A stretch of 46,927 bases of DNA, from assembly GCA_028281625.1 (NCBI GenBank), contig JANQJN010000036.1:1-46927 (forward strand), given 5' to 3'. This DNA is from Emcibacteraceae bacterium. GTDB lineage: Bacteria; Pseudomonadota; Alphaproteobacteria; Sphingomonadales; Emcibacteraceae. The notes under the pieces are model-generated. The model was not told where the DNA came from and searched no databases. It saw only the letters and a list, made by a program, of their open reading frames with translations. The first letter of the stretch is position 1, and every line of letters begins with the position of its first letter. The position numbers and the translations under genes are program-made. Below are positions 3,024 through 39,567 of this stretch, in pieces.

Positions 3024-4568
3024 ATGACAGAAACATTTTCGATTATCGACTGGCTGATTGTGGCCAGCTATCTCTCATTGCTGATTGGAATGGGTTGGAA
3101 ATACGCATCCCACAAATCCGCCAATGTGAATGATTATTTTCTGGGCGGAAATCGGATGCCATATCTTGTTGTCGCGGTATCTGTCATTGCCACCACCCAA
3201 TCCGCAGCAACCTTTTTGGGCGGCCCGGATCAGGGATATCGTGGTAACTATACCTATCTGGCAGCAAACATCAGCGCGATCATTGCGTCCGTATTTATCG
3301 CGAAAATTTTGATCCCACGTTATTACGCCATCAAAGCCACAACTGTTTATGAACTGCTTGATAACCGCTATGGACCTGTGGCTATGCGCGCTGCAGGATT
3401 GATGTATTTGGTTGGCCGTCTGTTTGCCAGTGGAGCACGCCTATATCTCGCGGCGATTGCAGTTTCTATGATTCTATTTGGTGATATTGCGGTCATCAGT
3501 ATCATTGGTGCTTCGTTGATCCTGCTGACGCTTGGATTTACCATAACGTTTCTTGGTGGCATTCGCTCCATCATCTGGACCGACCTATTCCAATTCTGCA
3601 TGTATAGTTTTTCAGCGATCGCGATCCTTTATTTATTGCTCGACGCGATTCCGCTTGGGCTAAGCGAAATCATAGTCAGCCTTCGAAATACTCCTGAAGG
3701 TATAAATAAGCTGCAACTGTTTAATTTCGACATGGACTTTGCGGATCCTTACGCAATGATATCCGTCTTCAGTGGGCTTATTCTTCTTTACATCGGTAGT
3801 TTCGGACTTGATCAGGACATTACCCAGCGGGTGCTAACTTGCAAAAATGATAATGAAGGTGCGCGGGCCCTGATCATTTCCGTCCTGATCGGTATCCCAC
3901 TAATTTGGCTGTTTATGACCATTGGTGAGCTTCTATATATTTTCTATGACCGGCTGGATTTGATGGGAGCGGCAGCGTCTTCCGTGACTGACAAGGCATT
4001 TCAAGGTGAAGACATAACCGTTTTTATGTTCTATATCCTAAACGAACTTCCTTCCGGGCTACGGGGCCTGGTCACTGTTGGGGTTATTGCGGCTGCAGTA
4101 TCCACCATCAATTCAGGATTAAACAGTATGTCTTCCGTATTGGTGCAGGACTTCTATCGCCCCCTGATTGAACGCACCACTTCTAAAAGTGAACGACACT
4201 ATGTGATTGCTGGCCAATATGGCATGGCGCTGGTTGGTCTGTGCCTGTTTTTAATGTCAGTACTTTGCTATTATTGGCAGCGCTATTCGGGCCTCCCACT
4301 GCTTGATTTCGCACTTTCGGTGATGGTCTTCGCATATTCAGGGTTACTCGGTGTTTACTTTACCGCTCTTTTTACCAAACGCGGCTCAACCGGTTCCGTA
4401 ATCGCAGCTCTCATTGCTGGTTTTCTGGTGACACTTTTTGGGCAAGGATACATTGTTGATCTTCTTTCAATGCCGGATGGTCTTAAAGGATATGCCTTTA
4501 CGTGGCAACTTTGTATCGGTACGCTGATTTCATTCATAATTTGTGTGATGGGGAAGAAAAATGTTTAA
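3024..4568 (+). CDS. Sodium:solute symporter (SSS family)
   Basis: This is a 514-residue polytopic membrane protein of normal length for the SSS/SLC5 family, expected to use the Na+ gradient to import an organic solute. Visible family marks are the N-terminal YFLGGNRMP segment after helix 1, the ATTQSAATFLGGP stretch in helix 2, and the long run of about 13 hydrophobic helices to the C-terminus. The substrate cannot be read from sequence. Its stop overlaps the start of the downstream amidohydrolase by 8 bases, which ties import to that enzyme and suggests amino-acid-like or N-acyl amino acid products as substrate (inference). No strong ribosome binding site precedes the ATG: the nearest purine run (AAAGGG, 3002-3007) is too distant for usual spacing, so the start is likely but not certain. 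Confidence 0.9.
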   Translation: MTETFSIIDWLIVASYLSLLIGMGWKYASHKSANVNDYFLGGNRMPYLVVAVSVIATTQSAATFLGGPDQGYRGNYTYLAANISAIIASVFIAKILIPRYYAIKATTVYELLDNRYGPVAMRAAGLMYLVGRLFASGARLYLAAIAVSMILFGDIAVISIIGASLILLTLGFTITFLGGIRSIIWTDLFQFCMYSFSAIAILYLLLDAIPLGLSEIIVSLRNTPEGINKLQLFNFDMDFADPYAMISVFSGLILLYIGSFGLDQDITQRVLTCKNDNEGARALIISVLIGIPLIWLFMTIGELLYIFYDRLDLMGAAASSVTDKAFQGEDITVFMFYILNELPSGLRGLVTVGVIAAAVSTINSGLNSMSSVLVQDFYRPLIERTTSKSERHYVIAGQYGMALVGLCLFLMSVLCYYWQRYSGLPLLDFALSVMVFAYSGLLGVYFTALFTKRGSTGSVIAALIAGFLVTLFGQGYIVDLLSMPDGLKGYAFTWQLCIGTLISFIICVMGKKNV

Positions 4569-6288
4569 GAAAAACTATCAACCGCTAACTATCATTTTGT
4601 TGACCTTTCTTTTGTCTACCTGCGGTGATCCGGCTGGTGAAAGCACTCAAATTCACTACGATACGATCATTCAAGGCGGCGTCATTCATGATGGTCTTGG
4701 AAGCCCGGCGATCGAAGGGGACGTTGCAATTCAGAATGACCGTATTGTTGCAGTTGGTGATCTTGGCAATGCAACGGCGGATGACTTGATTGACGCCACC
4801 GGCCTTGTTGTAGCACCAGGTTTTATAAACGTTCTGAGCTGGAGCGATCGTTCATTAATCCACGATGGCCGTGGCATGAGCGAACTTAAGCAAGGTGTTA
4901 CCTTGCAGATTTTCGGCGAAGGAACATCCCAGGGCCCAACCACCGAAGAACTCAAGGAATATGATGAACGAAATCAAGGCGACATCAAATTTGATATTAG
5001 TTGGACCACACTTGGTGAATATCTGAGCTTTTTGGAAAATAAGGGCGTGTCCCCCAATGTGGCCTCCTTTGTTGGGGCAACGACCGTGCGCAAACATGAA
5101 CTGGGTTATGAAAACCGCCTTGCAACACCTGAAGAAATGCTTCGCATGCAGGAGCTCGTGATTAATGCGATGAATGAAGGGGCGCTTGGTCTGGGCACCT
5201 CCCTTATCTATGCGCCGGCAACCTATTCGGATACAAATGAACTTATTGCGCTCAGTAAAGCCGCTGGTGTCTGCGGTGGATCTTATATTTCACATCTGCG
5301 CAGTGAAGGGAACCAGTTTGAGGAAGCATTTGAAGAACTCGTTACCATTGCTCGCGAAGCAAATATCCCTGCAGAAATTTATCACTTAAAAGCTGCCGGT
5401 CAGGCCAACTATTACAAAATGGATCTGGTGATTGAAAGTATAGAAGAGCTGCGTGCTCAAGGTCTGGATATCCGCGCCAACATGTACAGCTATACAGCGG
5501 GTGCCACTGGCCTTGACGCTATGATCCCGCCTTGGATTCAGGAGGGTGGAATTGATAACTGGATCGCCAATATGCAGAATCCAGAGCAGCGTGCTCGTGC
5601 GCTAAGGGAAATGCAGATGCATGACGCAGGTTGGGAAAATCTTGGCCGTGGATCAGGTTACGAGAATGTCATTCCCGTTGGATTTAAAAACCCTGAACTG
5701 CGCCATCTTATTGGCAAGACACTTCTTGAAATTGCCGAAGAAAGAGGAAAATCACCTGAAGAAACCGCAATGGATTTGGTCGCAGAAGATGGGAGCCGGG
5801 TTGGCACTATATATTTCATGATGAGTGAAGAAAACGTGCGTAAAAAACTTAGGCTACCATGGATGAGCTTTGGCTCTGACGCAGGCGCGCAAGCGCCAGA
5901 AGGGCTTTTTCTAAATTCAAGCACTCATCCTCGCGCTTATGGAAACTTCGCACGGGTGCTTGGTAAATATGTCCGTGATGAACAGGTTCTCACATTAAGT
6001 GATGCCATTCGCCGCATGACGTCCCTTCCTGCAACAAATCTGAAACTGGGTGATCGTGGTGTTATAGCGCCAGGATATTTTGCGGATCTTGCAATTTTTG
6101 ACCCCACCGAAATTGCCGATATGGCTACTTTCGAAGAACCGCACCAATATGCCGTCGGCATGGTTCACGTATTTGTAAATGGTGTCCAAGCGCTTGAGAA
6201 CGGTGAGCATACAGGCAATTTTTCAGGGCGATTTGTAAAGCGAGAAGGTTATGAGAATCAGTGCTCAATGGCTGATATCGATCTGTAA
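4561..6288 (+). CDS. Lipoprotein amidohydrolase, D-aminoacylase-like subfamily lacking the HxH motif
   Basis: This 575-residue protein has a lipoprotein signal ending FLLSTC (Cys about residue 21), so it acts outside the cytoplasmic membrane. The amidohydrolase fold is clear: the N-terminal beta segment with GGVIHDG, then APGF at 85-88, His245 in ISHLR, His275 in YHLKAAG, Asp440 in FGSDAG and the THPRAYG segment. In D-aminoacylases the position after APGFI(D/N)V is H-x-H. Here it is L92-S93-W94, and the bridging-ligand Cys of the usual GNCG is Gly121 (GEGT). The binuclear site must therefore be altered. I recall similar sequences with a LSW motif, so it is probably a real subfamily and not decay. 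The start overlaps the symporter gene, with GGGGAAG as ribosome site. The likely role is hydrolysis of N-acyl-D-amino acids or related amides, but the substrate is not established. Confidence 0.8.
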   Translation: MFKKNYQPLTIILLTFLLSTCGDPAGESTQIHYDTIIQGGVIHDGLGSPAIEGDVAIQNDRIVAVGDLGNATADDLIDATGLVVAPGFINVLSWSDRSLIHDGRGMSELKQGVTLQIFGEGTSQGPTTEELKEYDERNQGDIKFDISWTTLGEYLSFLENKGVSPNVASFVGATTVRKHELGYENRLATPEEMLRMQELVINAMNEGALGLGTSLIYAPATYSDTNELIALSKAAGVCGGSYISHLRSEGNQFEEAFEELVTIAREANIPAEIYHLKAAGQANYYKMDLVIESIEELRAQGLDIRANMYSYTAGATGLDAMIPPWIQEGGIDNWIANMQNPEQRARALREMQMHDAGWENLGRGSGYENVIPVGFKNPELRHLIGKTLLEIAEERGKSPEETAMDLVAEDGSRVGTIYFMMSEENVRKKLRLPWMSFGSDAGAQAPEGLFLNSSTHPRAYGNFARVLGKYVRDEQVLTLSDAIRRMTSLPATNLKLGDRGVIAPGYFADLAIFDPTEIADMATFEEPHQYAVGMVHVFVNGVQALENGEHTGNFSGRFVKREGYENQCSMADIDL

Positions 6289-6306: not shown

Positions 6307-7461
6307 ATGATTAGGTACACAGTTACTGCTACGGTCGCACTGGTCCTGGCACTGTCAGGTTGCGCTTCTGAAACCACAGAAACGCAAACCTCCGACTTCA
6401 GCGCTCAAGTGGATAAAATCTTTACCGGCATTGACCGAAACAATGCACCCGGCTGCTCAGTTGGCGTTATACATCAGGGGAGTTTCCTGCATAAAGGCGG
6501 CTACGGCATGGCCAATTTGGAACTTGATATACCACTTGATGAAAATAGTGTTTTCAGAATGGCTTCAGTATCCAAACAGTTTACAGCCATGGCTGTTCTA
6601 CTGCTTGCAGAAGAAGGAAAACTTGATCTGGACGAAGATATCAGAACCTATATGCCTGATCTGGTTGATTATGGTCACAAGGTAACAGCACGCGCCATGA
6701 TTGGACACTATGCGGGTATGGGGGACTACAACATGCTGGCTGACAGCTATGAAGGTCCTGGCGTTGAAAGTGAATTGAATCTGAAGTCTGTTGCCGGCGG
6801 ACCTTACAGACTTGGCAAACACGACTACCTCAGTAATGATGAGTTTTATGATGTCGTGAAAAAAGCTCCTCTTATTCAAGAGCCAAACACCGAATTGATC
6901 TACAGTAATTTTGCCTATTACCTTCTTTCGATCCTTGTGGAACGACAAAGTGGCATGTCTTTACGCGATTATGCGGAAGAAAAGATATTTGCGCCGCTCG
7001 GCATGGATAATACGCTTTTTTATGATGATGGCTTTGAAATCTTGAAAAACAGAGCGAGCGGCTATGTGGCTCGCGAAGATGGTAGCTACGAAATCGACAT
7101 GGCCAACTTGTTCGTGGTTGGTGATGGTGGCCTACACACAAGCGTCAATGATTTTATCAAATGGGATCAAAACTTCTATGTCCCAAAGGTCGGCGAAAAC
7201 CCGGAAGCCATTATTGAGCAAATGAACACACCGACAACAGACCTCAAATTTGATGACACACCTTACGCAAACGGTCAAAATGTGGCTACCGTGTTGGGCC
7301 GTAGAGCCTTTACCCACTCAGGGGGTTGGCTTGGTAGCTCCACCTATTATATGCGGTTCCCTGACGATGAGTTTTCCATCGTTACACTATGCAATGATAC
7401 CCAACAAAATCCATATGATTATGTCCTGGAGATCGCAAAGTTACATTTCGGTGAGGAGTAG
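6307..7461 (+). CDS. Lipoprotein serine hydrolase of the class C beta-lactamase/PBP fold
   Basis: This is a 384-residue protein with a textbook lipobox (LSGC, Cys19). The catalytic signatures of the serine beta-lactamase-like superfamily are all present: S87-x-x-K90 (SVSK), Y199-S-N201 and H337-S-G339 in place of KTG. HSG is common in esterase, D-aminopeptidase and D,D-peptidase relatives, so lactamase activity is not implied. It starts 18 bases after the amidohydrolase stop, with GAGAGGGA upstream of the ATG, and is the third gene of the symporter operon. A plausible role is periplasmic cleavage of D-amino-acid-containing peptides, amides or esters feeding the other two genes. The exact substrate is unknown. 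Confidence 0.87.
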   Translation: MIRYTVTATVALVLALSGCASETTETQTSDFSAQVDKIFTGIDRNNAPGCSVGVIHQGSFLHKGGYGMANLELDIPLDENSVFRMASVSKQFTAMAVLLLAEEGKLDLDEDIRTYMPDLVDYGHKVTARAMIGHYAGMGDYNMLADSYEGPGVESELNLKSVAGGPYRLGKHDYLSNDEFYDVVKKAPLIQEPNTELIYSNFAYYLLSILVERQSGMSLRDYAEEKIFAPLGMDNTLFYDDGFEILKNRASGYVAREDGSYEIDMANLFVVGDGGLHTSVNDFIKWDQNFYVPKVGENPEAIIEQMNTPTTDLKFDDTPYANGQNVATVLGRRAFTHSGGWLGSSTYYMRFPDDEFSIVTLCNDTQQNPYDYVLEIAKLHFGEE

Positions 7462-7560
7462 CATTTCTAAATAAATTTAATTTCTAACTTGAATGTTATA
7501 ATATAACTTATTAGTTTGCACTCGCTAATTTTGGGGGAAATTATCGAAGGAACATGGGAA

Positions 7561-7962
7561 ATGAACAAATTATTTGAGTTAGATTTTTATTTAGACAATA
7601 TCAGAATTCTTGGAATTATTGCGATTCTTGTTGGGGTTGGAACATGGGTCATGGAACTTACCGATCTGGTTTATGTATGCCCATTTTGTCGCGCGCAAAG
7701 AACTGTTATTCTTATTCTTGGAATCTTTATGACGCTACCAAACACCGGTCATTTTATACTGCGTTATGTTACCTGTATCCTGGCCGGCTACGCGCTTGTG
7801 GTTGCCAGCAACCAGCATTTCCGCGGCTGGGTAGCCATTCAAAGAGGTGAAAGAGGATTAATAACTGAAAATTGGTGGATTGATTCCTGGACTCTGTCCT
7901 TCTTTGCGATCTGTATCATCACCGCGCAAGTATGGCTGATATTCTTAAATAAGAATAAGTAA
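7561..7962 (+). CDS. DsbB-like four-helix membrane protein with CPFC-xx-QR motif
   Basis: This 133-residue protein starts at the ATG at 7561, chosen because GAAGGAA lies eight bases upstream; a longer TTG form from 7516 is less likely. Four hydrophobic segments are visible (about residues 14-31, 47-64, 66-84 and 109-129). Between helices 1 and 2 sits C40-P-F-C43-R-A-Q46-R47, the same CxxCxxQR pattern that marks the first periplasmic loop of DsbB, the quinone-coupled disulfide oxidase. The loop between helices 3 and 4 has no cysteine, so the second redox pair of DsbB is missing. This is therefore a reduced relative or a look-alike, possibly a thiol/quinone redox membrane protein. It is not obviously linked to its neighbours. 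Fold assignment is inference. Confidence 0.6.
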   Translation: MNKLFELDFYLDNIRILGIIAILVGVGTWVMELTDLVYVCPFCRAQRTVILILGIFMTLPNTGHFILRYVTCILAGYALVVASNQHFRGWVAIQRGERGLITENWWIDSWTLSFFAICIITAQVWLIFLNKNK

Positions 7963-36665: not shown

Positions 36666-36684
36666 GAGTTTGAGGGAGGGAAAA

Positions 36685-38247
36685 ATGAAAAAGTTGAGTA
36701 TGTTAGTGATCGCGCTCTTGCTCGTGAATTGCGGTCAGTTAGAAAACACTGGAATTAGCGCCGATATTCTTATTTCAGGCGGAACCGTTTACACTGGCCG
36801 TAATGAGGCACCTCAGTCCCTTGATATTGCCATTAATGGAGATCAAATTACCTATATAGGCCCTGTGGGCGCGGAAAATTTCAATGCGGACCGGATTATT
36901 GATGCAACGGGGCTGATTGTTGCGCCCGGGTTCATTGATCCTCATACCCATTCGCTAGGAAATCTGCAGGATCCTGACCGCAAACTAAACGCCAACTATC
37001 TAACCCAGGGGGTCACAACCGTGTTTAACGGCAATGATGGCGGCGGGCCAACCAACATTCGCGAAACCCTGGATGAATTGGAAGAAAATGGCATCGGAAC
37101 AAACACGGCGCTGTTCGTAGGACAAGGTGCTGTAAGGCGCTCCGTAATGCAAATGCGTAATGAGCCGCCCACCTACGGTGAACTGGAAATCATGAAAGGC
37201 CAGGTCCGGGTTGCAATGGAAGAAGGGGCACTTGGCCTATCCACCGGATTATATTATGCACCGGGCAGCTATTCATCAACAGAGGAAGTCATTGAATTGG
37301 CAAAGGAAATCGCACCGTATGACGGTATTTATGAAAGCCATATTCGCGATGAAAGCACATATAACATTGGCCTCTTGAGCGCGATCAAAGAAGTGATTGA
37401 TATTGCTCGCGCTGCCGAGATTAAAGGACATGTGGGTCATATAAAAGCCCTTGGTGTTGATGTTTGGGGGCAGTCAACCGACGCGATTGCAATGATTGAG
37501 GCCGCTCAAGCAGAAGGCCTTCGGATCACCGCCGACCAATATCCATGGCTCGCCACCGGAACCGGGGTGGTGGGAGCGCTTCTCCCCCGTTACGTGCAAG
37601 AAGGTGGGGTGGAGGCCATGCATGCACGACTTCGTGACCCGGCACAACTGACTCAAATAAAGGCCGATATGGCGGAAAACATGCGTAAACGTGGTGGGCC
37701 AGATGCATTGCTGCTTTCCGGCGGCAACGGGAATATGGTCGTGGGTCGCACCCTCGGCGAAGAAGCAGCAGCACGGGGGAAAGATCTCATCGATACCGCC
37801 ATAGAAATCATTTTTGAAGGTGGCAGCAATATTGCTAATTTCGCCATTGATGAAGACGACTTGCGGGCCTTTATGCAAAAACCCTGGGTGATGACATCCT
37901 CAGACGGAAGTTTCGGCCATCCTCGCAAATTTGCCACCTTCCCCACCAAGTACCGGGAATATGTAGTAAATAAAGAATATGTCACTCTGCAGGATTTCAT
38001 TCACCGCAGTACCGGTTTGACAGCCGATACCTTCAAATTATGTGACCGCGGTTACATCGATACCGACATGTTTGCAGATATCGTAATCTTCGATGCCGAC
38101 GAATTTGCGCCGGTTGCAGATTTCGTAAATCCGCGGGAGCTTTCTGTGGGCGTGAAGTATCTTGTAGTTAATGGCGGCCTTGCCATTGATAATGGTGAAC
38201 TGACTGGAGAATTATATGGTCGGGGGCTGACCCGCTGCACCCGTTAA
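36685..38247 (+). CDS. Lipoprotein D-aminoacylase/amidohydrolase with intact HxH
   Basis: The product is 520 residues from the ATG at 36685, which has GAGGGAGGG just upstream. The signal ends LLVNC (Asn at -1 is unusual for a lipobox). Metal-site residues are H87 and H89 (FIDPHTH), H219 (ESHIRDE), H252 (GHIKALG) and D407 (TSSDGS). The position of the bridging Cys of classical D-aminoacylase is D118 (GNDG). The family hydrolyses N-acyl-D-amino acids; the Asp substitution points to a subfamily of different specificity. Second gene after the SMP-30-like protein and ended by a strong bidirectional terminator. It is a paralogue of the 4.6-6.3 kb enzyme. Confidence 0.85.
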   Translation: MKKLSMLVIALLLVNCGQLENTGISADILISGGTVYTGRNEAPQSLDIAINGDQITYIGPVGAENFNADRIIDATGLIVAPGFIDPHTHSLGNLQDPDRKLNANYLTQGVTTVFNGNDGGGPTNIRETLDELEENGIGTNTALFVGQGAVRRSVMQMRNEPPTYGELEIMKGQVRVAMEEGALGLSTGLYYAPGSYSSTEEVIELAKEIAPYDGIYESHIRDESTYNIGLLSAIKEVIDIARAAEIKGHVGHIKALGVDVWGQSTDAIAMIEAAQAEGLRITADQYPWLATGTGVVGALLPRYVQEGGVEAMHARLRDPAQLTQIKADMAENMRKRGGPDALLLSGGNGNMVVGRTLGEEAAARGKDLIDTAIEIIFEGGSNIANFAIDEDDLRAFMQKPWVMTSSDGSFGHPRKFATFPTKYREYVVNKEYVTLQDFIHRSTGLTADTFKLCDRGYIDTDMFADIVIFDADEFAPVADFVNPRELSVGVKYLVVNGGLAIDNGELTGELYGRGLTRCTR

Positions 38248-38283: not shown

Positions 38284-39567
38284 TTATAGATAACTTAACC
38301 ACCAATCCTTGCGGCGACGCTTTACATCCGCCACCCATTTACAGAAAGGATAAAGCAGCGCAACCACGATTATCCAGCCAGCATAAACGCCCACCAGATC
38401 AACACCATATCCTTCAGGATAAAAAGGGAAGAACTTAAAGACATCATCGAAGGAATGCCCCTGTGCCATACCAAGAAGCATGGCAAGTGCGTGAATGAGG
38501 TATAGATGCGCCACATAAAAGGCGAAAGGTACCCGACCAAACATTACCAGCACATCTTTAACTTTGCCTTTGACTTTATCAGCATGGCCGCAGATGATCG
38601 CCATGATTCCAAGGGTTGCCAATAGATAAAGCAGGCTAGCGGGATATTTGCTTACATTCATGAAATCAAAAACGGTGGCGAGGAAACCATATTCCTGAAC
38701 CTGCCACGGATTCGGATCGCCGTAAATGCCAGCAAGGCGAAGCGCCAGAAACGCACCCAGCATAATAAGACCAGCATTAATCAGATAAGCATTTCGCTCA
38801 GCCGCTGGTTTTTGAAAGATATAGGCGGTGCCATAGCCTACCAGCATCAGACCTACGCACGGGATTAGCGGATAGAAAGTGTTGACATAAAACTGACCAA
38901 GAATAACCGAGTTTTGCGAATAAAATGTAATCCATAGCGGATCCGTTCCATCACCAAAAGGCGCACCACTCGGCCAGTAAGGCTCAAGCAGATTATGACC
39001 AAAGACTATGGCAAGCCCGATTATGAGACATACCCGTGGTCCCAGAAACAGCACACCAGACAGAATAATCATGCTGGCACCCAATGCCCAAATCACCTGC
39101 AGGAAGATGATGGTAAGACCACCAACTGCTTCTTCACCAAATGGGGTAAAGGTCCAGGCTGTTGATATGATGGTCAGTTCCATAATCACCAACCAAACGC
39201 CACGTTTGAAAACAAAGCCGGAAAGCTCCTTCGCCGTTTTACGCGCAGCCATAAGACCGACAGACGTTCCCGCCAGGAAAATAAAAGTTGGTGCACAAAG
39301 GTGAGTGATCCAACGTGTAAGGTAAAGCCCGATTCCAATATCAGGTTGAGCCATTGGATCCTGAACGCCCCCCATCATCATAAAATCACGCACATGATCC
39401 AGCGCCATAATCAGGATCACGAGACCCCTGACCATGTCGATATTGCTTAGGCGGTATGCCCGCTTGTCGGTGTTTTCATTTGCTGCCGTATAATCCACCG
39501 AAGGGACAAATACGGGGCCATAATCCTTTTCGGCCACTTGATTTTTTCTAATTGCAGTCATAATCAA
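38284..39567 (-). CDS. DUF1624 family polytopic membrane protein
   Basis: The 427-residue protein has about ten hydrophobic segments after a ~35-residue soluble start. RLSNIDMVRGLVILIMALDHVRDF followed by WITHLCAPTFIFLAGTSVG matches the DUF1624/heparan-alpha-glucosaminide N-acetyltransferase-like acyltransferase superfamily. There the conserved DHxRD and TH..AP elements form the acyl-transfer site. These proteins are thought to acylate sugars or lipids across the membrane, but no substrate is known for this branch. The start is the ATG at 39567 or the third codon. Single gene, ending at a shared terminator. Confidence 0.85.
   Translation of the reverse strand: MIMTAIRKNQVAEKDYGPVFVPSVDYTAANENTDKRAYRLSNIDMVRGLVILIMALDHVRDFMMMGGVQDPMAQPDIGIGLYLTRWITHLCAPTFIFLAGTSVGLMAARKTAKELSGFVFKRGVWLVIMELTIISTAWTFTPFGEEAVGGLTIIFLQVIWALGASMIILSGVLFLGPRVCLIIGLAIVFGHNLLEPYWPSGAPFGDGTDPLWITFYSQNSVILGQFYVNTFYPLIPCVGLMLVGYGTAYIFQKPAAERNAYLINAGLIMLGAFLALRLAGIYGDPNPWQVQEYGFLATVFDFMNVSKYPASLLYLLATLGIMAIICGHADKVKGKVKDVLVMFGRVPFAFYVAHLYLIHALAMLLGMAQGHSFDDVFKFFPFYPEGYGVDLVGVYAGWIIVVALLYPFCKWVADVKRRRKDWWLSYL

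Follow-up and report, generated by a model that had tools for sequence, protein, structure and literature searches.

A strand-1 HxH motif is close to a signature of the amidohydrolase superfamily. The described enzymes nearest to the protein analysed here, the D-aminoacylase of Alcaligenes and PpOngB, belong to subtype V (subtypes are named according to PMC12017989 and to PMC12753220, a paper that deals with subtype VIII). PpOngB is reported to use a single zinc, bound at the beta site by Cys/His/His, and Asp368 serves as the base and also as the acid. PpOngB does not require a further metal at the alpha site, such a metal attenuates activity in the Alcaligenes enzyme, and the change of either HxH histidine to Ala abolished PpOngB activity. 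Lys254, Tyr285, Tyr194 and Arg379 are listed among the residues binding the acetamido and carboxylate groups of the substrate, Ser291 also binds substrate, and His68 of the HxH motif and the ligand Cys97 are 29 residues apart (all PMC12017989). In subtype IV, the GlcNAc-6-phosphate deacetylase NagA of E. coli is described as mononuclear, with Q-x-N where HxH is expected. In the mycobacterial NagA, conversion of HxH to QxN leaves a weak activity and conversion to AxA none, and Glu127 lies 71 residues after His56, the first HxH position (PMC6016474). The coordinating residues given for the Klebsiella NagA are E131, H143, H195 and H216 (PMC12409433), and the mycobacterial E127 is taken here as the counterpart of E131.

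The window, meaning the whole stretch of DNA analysed, is 46,927 nt long (Emcibacteraceae bacterium, assembly GCA_028281625.1, contig JANQJN010000036.1, forward strand), and hosts a gene for a D-aminoacylase relative that lacks HxH and carries a glutamate, Glu120, in the loop that in subtype V provides the cysteine ligand. Proteins with this loop are called hereafter Glu type, and those with Asp or Cys at the ligand place Asp type and Cys type, respectively. A literature search conducted largely outside subscription journals found no published description of the Glu type. An enzyme described in a paper on bile salt hydrolase was considered as a Glu-type candidate and discarded, as it is reported to bear HxH and a predicted Lys bridge (PMC13081902). 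UacY has been proposed as a D-aminoacylase homologue (PMC12507026), and more such genes have been reported from marine Gemmatimonadetes (PMC11596202).

Gene, fold and active-site residues

The original prediction, made by reading the DNA alone, held that the frame is intact, and the gene is indeed open over its whole length, without interruption. Features of the window are collected in Table 1.

Table 1. Location of the relevant genes and residues in the window, with the evidence for each
Feature	Position	Strand	Basis
Amidohydrolase gene, D-aminoacylase fold, Glu type without HxH, 575 aa	4561..6288	+	Translated open frame, PF07969, structure model
Cys21, in lipobox-like LSTC after a hydrophobic stretch	4621..4623	+	Read from translation
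L92-S93-W94, at the HxH place, strand 1	4834..4842	+	Translation, alignment
Glu120, end of strand 2, proposed third metal ligand in the place of Cys	4918..4920	+	Invariance
Tyr217, counterpart of PpOngB Tyr194	5209..5211	+	177/177 Glu-type rows without HxH
His245, proposed metal ligand, strand 5 in the superfamily count	5293..5295	+	281/281
His275, proposed metal ligand, strand 6 in the superfamily count	5383..5385	+	281/281
Lys277, counterpart of substrate-binding PpOngB Lys254	5389..5391	+	177/177 Glu-type rows without HxH
Tyr309, counterpart of PpOngB Tyr285	5485..5487	+	177/177 Glu-type rows without HxH
Asp440, proposed catalytic base/acid, strand 8	5878..5880	+	281/281; role according to PMC12017989
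Arg458 (HPR), counterpart of PpOngB Arg379	5932..5934	+	177/177 Glu-type rows without HxH
Sodium:solute symporter gene, just upstream, 8-base overlap	3024..4568	+	PF00474
Beta-lactamase-fold serine hydrolase gene, downstream	6307..7461	+	PF00144
Paralogue, Asp type with HxH (H92-T93-H94; D123 in GNDG)	36670..38247	+	

The best NCBIfam model for the 575-aa protein is NF006560 (PRK09061.1, amidohydrolase family protein; E 1.8e-56), with a score of 191.5 bits that is far under the cut-off of 340. By sequence, the nearest solved proteins are the D-aminoacylases 1rjp and 1m7j, followed by 9g5m (a Klebsiella D-acylase), PpOngB and 3gip (an N-acyl-D-glutamate deacylase). A structure model based on 75 aligned sequences, those of the window protein and 74 relatives, has a mean pLDDT of 93.6. 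In VIA-align it matches 1v4y with a Z of 55.1, and 1m7j, the D-aminoacylase of Alcaligenes faecalis, with a Z of 54.9 (rmsd 1.7 over 467 residues, 36% identity in the alignment). The top nine rows are the same in Foldseek and VIA-align, and consist of D-aminoacylases, N-acyl-D-amino acid deacylases and PpOngB; VIA-align Z values are 53.8-55.1 for these rows, versus 33.0 for the next one. As modelled, the protein belongs to the amidohydrolase superfamily and has the TIM-barrel plus beta-domain fold of 1M7J and 3GIP. Its LSTC motif is presumably a lipobox, judged by the lipobox rule, and the gene product is a probable exported lipoprotein.

The fold over nearly the whole chain, the two ligand histidines, the catalytic Asp and the Lys/Tyr/Arg of the substrate pocket are common to the window protein, 1M7J and PpOngB (9KB1). 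Residues H245, H275 and D440, which on first reading had been noted as retained, are all found as placed, and represent the subtype V set of two ligand His and one catalytic Asp on strands 5, 6 and 8. The substrate-pocket residues K277, Y309, R458 and Y217 are kept as well, and the Ser of the subtype V pocket is replaced by Ala; the correspondences with PpOngB given in Table 1 were derived from the 1m7j alignment combined with the published numbering. The window protein differs from these two enzymes in having Glu for the Cys ligand, a loop shorter by one residue, and no HxH.

The presence of L92-S-W94 at the HxH place is borne out both by the codons and by the alignment with relatives. These sequences indicate that LSW is the usual form of the motif and not the sole one, which answers the question, raised at the outset, of its invariance across the subfamily: of a set of 81 proteins (those from 80 loci plus the window protein) 73 have L at position 92, 69 have W and 12 have H at position 94, and all have S93. 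The invariance of S93 and the near-invariance of W94 within the LSW branch suggest a role, and not mere relaxation. One same-genus orthologue (L099), 75% identical to the window protein, reads LSH, so that Trp and His are swapped at position 94 between close orthologues.

The bridging Cys had been equated with Gly121. This is one residue off, because in the same 81 proteins E120 is identical in all and position 121 is G in 73, which argues that the Cys place is taken by Glu and not by Gly. The Cys ligand that defines subtype V after strand 2 is absent, the loop of the window protein being GE-G. In the profile alignment the strand-2 loop is F-G-E-G-T-S in the window protein versus T-G-N-C-G-I-S in 1m7j, hence one residue shorter; E120 is set over the Asn that precedes the Cys, and the alignment by itself is compatible with either the Asn or the Cys position. 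L92, at the first HxH position, and the loop residue E120 are 28 residues apart, versus 29 for the PpOngB pair, which fits a one-residue deletion. In the model E120 is located two residues past the predicted strand 113-118, and E120, H245, H275 and D440 are each found at the end of a predicted strand or at most three residues after it.

Loop type and HxH across the family

Family members were gathered in two samples. The first includes 226 full-length distinct sequences out of 253 matches from several searches, and the shares of the types within it are biased, as queries were mainly of the Glu type. The second was obtained by using two Cys-type queries (L148, L147) in genomes of the phyla of L045 and L016, labelled Acidobacteria and Bacteroidetes, and 58 of its 66 matches were kept, one partial sequence and seven repeats being left out. 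The resulting 284 full-length members were reduced to 281 by dropping two rows in which the loop could not be classed (L235_m2_0 and L112_p2_0) and a misaligned one (L072_m1_3120); all three carry HxH, none has a Glu loop, and they would not oppose the pattern described below.

Classed by the strand-2 loop residue, the 281 proteins comprise 184 with Glu, 66 with Asp, 28 with Cys and 3 with His. Of the Glu proteins 177 lack HxH and seven have it intact, and all the 97 remaining proteins possess it; as the 281 rows are related by descent, this association goes back to a single evolutionary event or to a few. The second sample, taken alone, gives the same picture (18/19 Glu proteins, 0/39 others). 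As judged from these alignments, the loss of HxH goes beyond chance, as it affects a whole clade and is coupled to the Glu loop. None of the 177 proteins has the first His, and 38 have a His at the third position. The forms observed at the HxH place are LSW (98), QSH (20), MGQ (9), MDQ (8), LSH, LGQ and LGH (6 each), and others.

Position 120 is Glu in all the 184 Glu-type rows, and E120, H245, H275, K277, Y309, D440 and R458 are unchanged in all the 177 that lack HxH. The seven Glu proteins with HxH have no Y217. The counterpart of PpOngB S291 is Ala in 77, Gly in 65 and Ser in 32 of the 177. In the Asp type E120 is aligned with Q, P, N, A, V or L, and in 27 of the 28 Cys-type proteins with N. 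The loop accordingly holds only possible metal ligands, the counterpart of E120 being not ligand-like in the Asp and Cys types. It is rather probable that the strand-2 ligand has four forms in one family (Cys, Asp, His, Glu), HxH being lost, among the sequences seen, solely with Glu.

A few other features of the family are worth reporting. In L151, L154 and L220 (3/281) the loop is of the fourth type, SLHSG or GLHSG, where the ligand place is occupied by His; these proteins have HxH. A His following the predicted strand 166-169 (VGH) is found in 52/66 Asp and 21/28 Cys proteins, in 3/177 Glu proteins without HxH and in 0/7 of those with HxH; the window protein has A173 (5077-5079). The family is strongly expanded among genomes labelled Gemmatimonadota, the phylum of L084: 93 of 101 feature a family match at E <= 1e-50, and one genome, G274, has 13 matches. 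A search for further Cys-type rows in 200 genomes of Proteobacteria, with L132 as query, matched 5 genomes and yielded no new rows.

Trees were built from representatives only (87 and 62 rows), upon removal of the motif columns, and are unrooted. The Glu type makes up one side of a single branch in the 87-row tree (SH-aLRT 96), and corresponds to one change in the 62-row tree. The loss of HxH takes one change in the former and two in the latter, in which the base, with the HxH plus Glu proteins, is poorly resolved and the bootstrap had not settled. As the Glu type is a single clade and HxH is still found in seven of its members, Glu was probably acquired before HxH disappeared on one or a few occasions. 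Relatives are found in records labelled Proteobacteria, Bacteroidetes, Acidobacteria, Gemmatimonadetes, Chloroflexi, Verrucomicrobia, KSB1 and Heimdallarchaeota.

A candidate single-metal site and its alternatives

Quite likely, the Glu type has a Glu/His/His single-metal site, with Asp440 as general base, in an exported lipoprotein-like hydrolase. In the loop after barrel strand 2, shorter by one residue, the zinc-binding Cys would be replaced by E120; a single metal, probably a zinc ion, would be bound at the beta site by E120, H245 and H275 together, its water molecule being activated by D440, from which the leaving nitrogen would subsequently receive a proton. Strand-1 HxH would have been lost after Glu arose, leaving the alpha metal site unable to form in the usual way. 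A PpOngB-like chemistry on a Glu/His/His metal is the simplest reading. The original prediction of a mononuclear, or differently metallated, remodelled site survives in part: a constrained, lineage-wide remodelling toward one metal fits the data, and the assignment of the ligands does not, in view of the invariant Glu in the Cys loop. The implication of the prediction, that a pair of catalytic metals was reduced to one, also falls, as a single zinc already suffices in PpOngB, a relative of known structure. On this comparison the change would consist in the loss of an alpha site that is not in use and of the HxH histidines, both essential in PpOngB, and not in fewer catalytic metals. Nothing obvious replaces these histidines in the window protein, which counts against the proposed site, as do the constancy of S93 and W94 in the LSW branch, the setting of E120 over the Asn in the profile alignment, the His found at the third position in 38 of the 177 proteins, the Ala or Gly that most of them have for the pocket Ser, and the lack of Y217 in the seven Glu proteins with HxH.

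It is unlikely that a normal two-metal site survives, with other residues, as E120 bridging and another acidic residue, holding the alpha metal. The conservation of D440 in 281/281 proteins would suit such a site, as would the acidic residues at positions 116 and 272, which are Glu in 36 and 39, respectively, of 39 representatives of the LSW branch. The window protein itself, however, has Q at 116, the HxH positions are inconsistent (the first is L, Q, M or N, the third W, H, Q, G or M), and PpOngB is reported to need one zinc (PMC12017989). The reading of the original prediction, in which nothing takes over from the third ligand and a single metal is held just by H245, H275 and D440, agrees with the invariance of both His and of the Asp, but is made very unlikely by a Glu that is invariant in precisely the loop where relatives have Cys, Asp or His.

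Among the relatives with the superfamily fold in the structure comparison of the model are the CRMP proteins, which are non-enzymatic. The Glu type might similarly be no longer a hydrolase, and have kept fold and metal for binding or other chemistry. This would explain the lack of residues reported to be essential in PpOngB (PMC12017989), but in 177/177 proteins no change is seen in the ligand His pair, in the catalytic Asp or in the four substrate-binding residues, and such a loss of function seems most improbable.

The window gene has been compared at the codon level with five close relatives. Values of pS are 0.71-0.78, near saturation, versus pN values of 0.12-0.19, and the low pN denotes purifying selection, as expected of a working gene. 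Of 12 same-genus genomes, seven have an orthologue 66-82% identical to the window protein, one of these orthologues being cut by a contig end. A random decaying copy with unconstrained motif positions, which had been raised at the outset as the outcome contrary to a deliberate change, is excluded for practical purposes, since in spite of the missing motif and of the stops or frameshifts found in the matched stretch of 6/80 relatives, and not in the window copy, the frame is intact, codons are constrained, and both same-genus orthologues and relatives in many phyla exist. The sequences thus point to the Glu type as a real, constrained and widespread variant of the D-aminoacylase family.

The Glu/His/His site proposed above has a precedent in NagA of E. 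coli and Klebsiella, which it would resemble in having one metal, Glu and His ligands, and no HxH. The window protein is not a NagA member, as its Glu is found 28 residues after the strand-1 motif, versus the 71 reported for the mycobacterial NagA, and NagA 3egj matches the family profile weakly (E 4.5e-06, over 40 C-terminal positions). The NagA Glu comes from another position of the chain, and the resemblance would therefore be a convergence. On balance we favour, with some reserve, a new ligand class of the superfamily, in which a strand-2 Glu and two His operate with no HxH, arisen independently of NagA. A large natural clade without HxH, flanked by Glu neighbours that have it, is a ready series for asking what the second metal site is for, and under which conditions it may be lost. 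The label 'D-aminoacylase' spans several different metal sites.

Neighbouring genes, export and paralogues

The symporter gene adjoins the amidohydrolase gene in at least 4/80 loci (L006, L007, L009, L011), all close kin; a fifth, weak symporter match is located 707 bases away in L025. The serine hydrolase, for which D-aminopeptidase is the best NCBIfam model, with a score under its cut-off, was matched in at least 4/80 loci and is adjoining in at least two (L008, L065). All these counts are lower bounds, as many loci are on short contigs. Because adjacency of the symporter is limited to four close kin, the context leaves the substrate unsettled, and the gene neighbourhood, with the serine hydrolase adjoining in two loci, was discarded as a guide to it. 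Frames 1041-2897 (618 aa) and 7516-7962 (148 aa) have no Pfam match at E 0.001.

Export was considered as the cause of the Cys loss, as a thiol ligand might be disfavoured outside the cytoplasm. In a first rough count, signal-like N-termini were found in 139/161 Glu, 28/45 Asp and 3/10 Cys rows. The larger sample, analysed under a laxer rule, does not support the hypothesis, as figures are 167/176 for Glu, 59/65 for Asp and 20/28 for Cys (23 if Tat-like signals are included), both detection rules being crude.

The paralogue at 36.7 kb keeps HxH, as had been stated. It had also been indicated as a natural comparison, but its GNDG loop makes it an Asp-type protein, also lacking Cys, and not a matched control. 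Three more family members are present in the genome among the matches listed, this one and others on contigs 51 and 162. All three have HxH and Asp loops (GNDG, GQDG, GLDG), and are 32-39% identical over the aligned stretches; no Cys-type member was found among the listed family matches of the genome. A second family member is present on the fetched stretch in 18/80 loci (L018, L020, L021, L026, L032, L039, L054, L055, L057-L061, L065 and four others). Six of these are Glu proteins without HxH (LSW/NSM), eight are Asp and one is Cys with HxH, one has HxH and an unread loop, and two are unreadable. An Asp-type HxH relative is thus found within the fetched stretch in 8/80 loci, as in the window, where the two genes are 30 kb apart. 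The HxH paralogue of the window is located beside a membrane acyltransferase gene (38284-39567, minus strand; PF07786), related to heparan-alpha-glucosaminide N-acetyltransferase.
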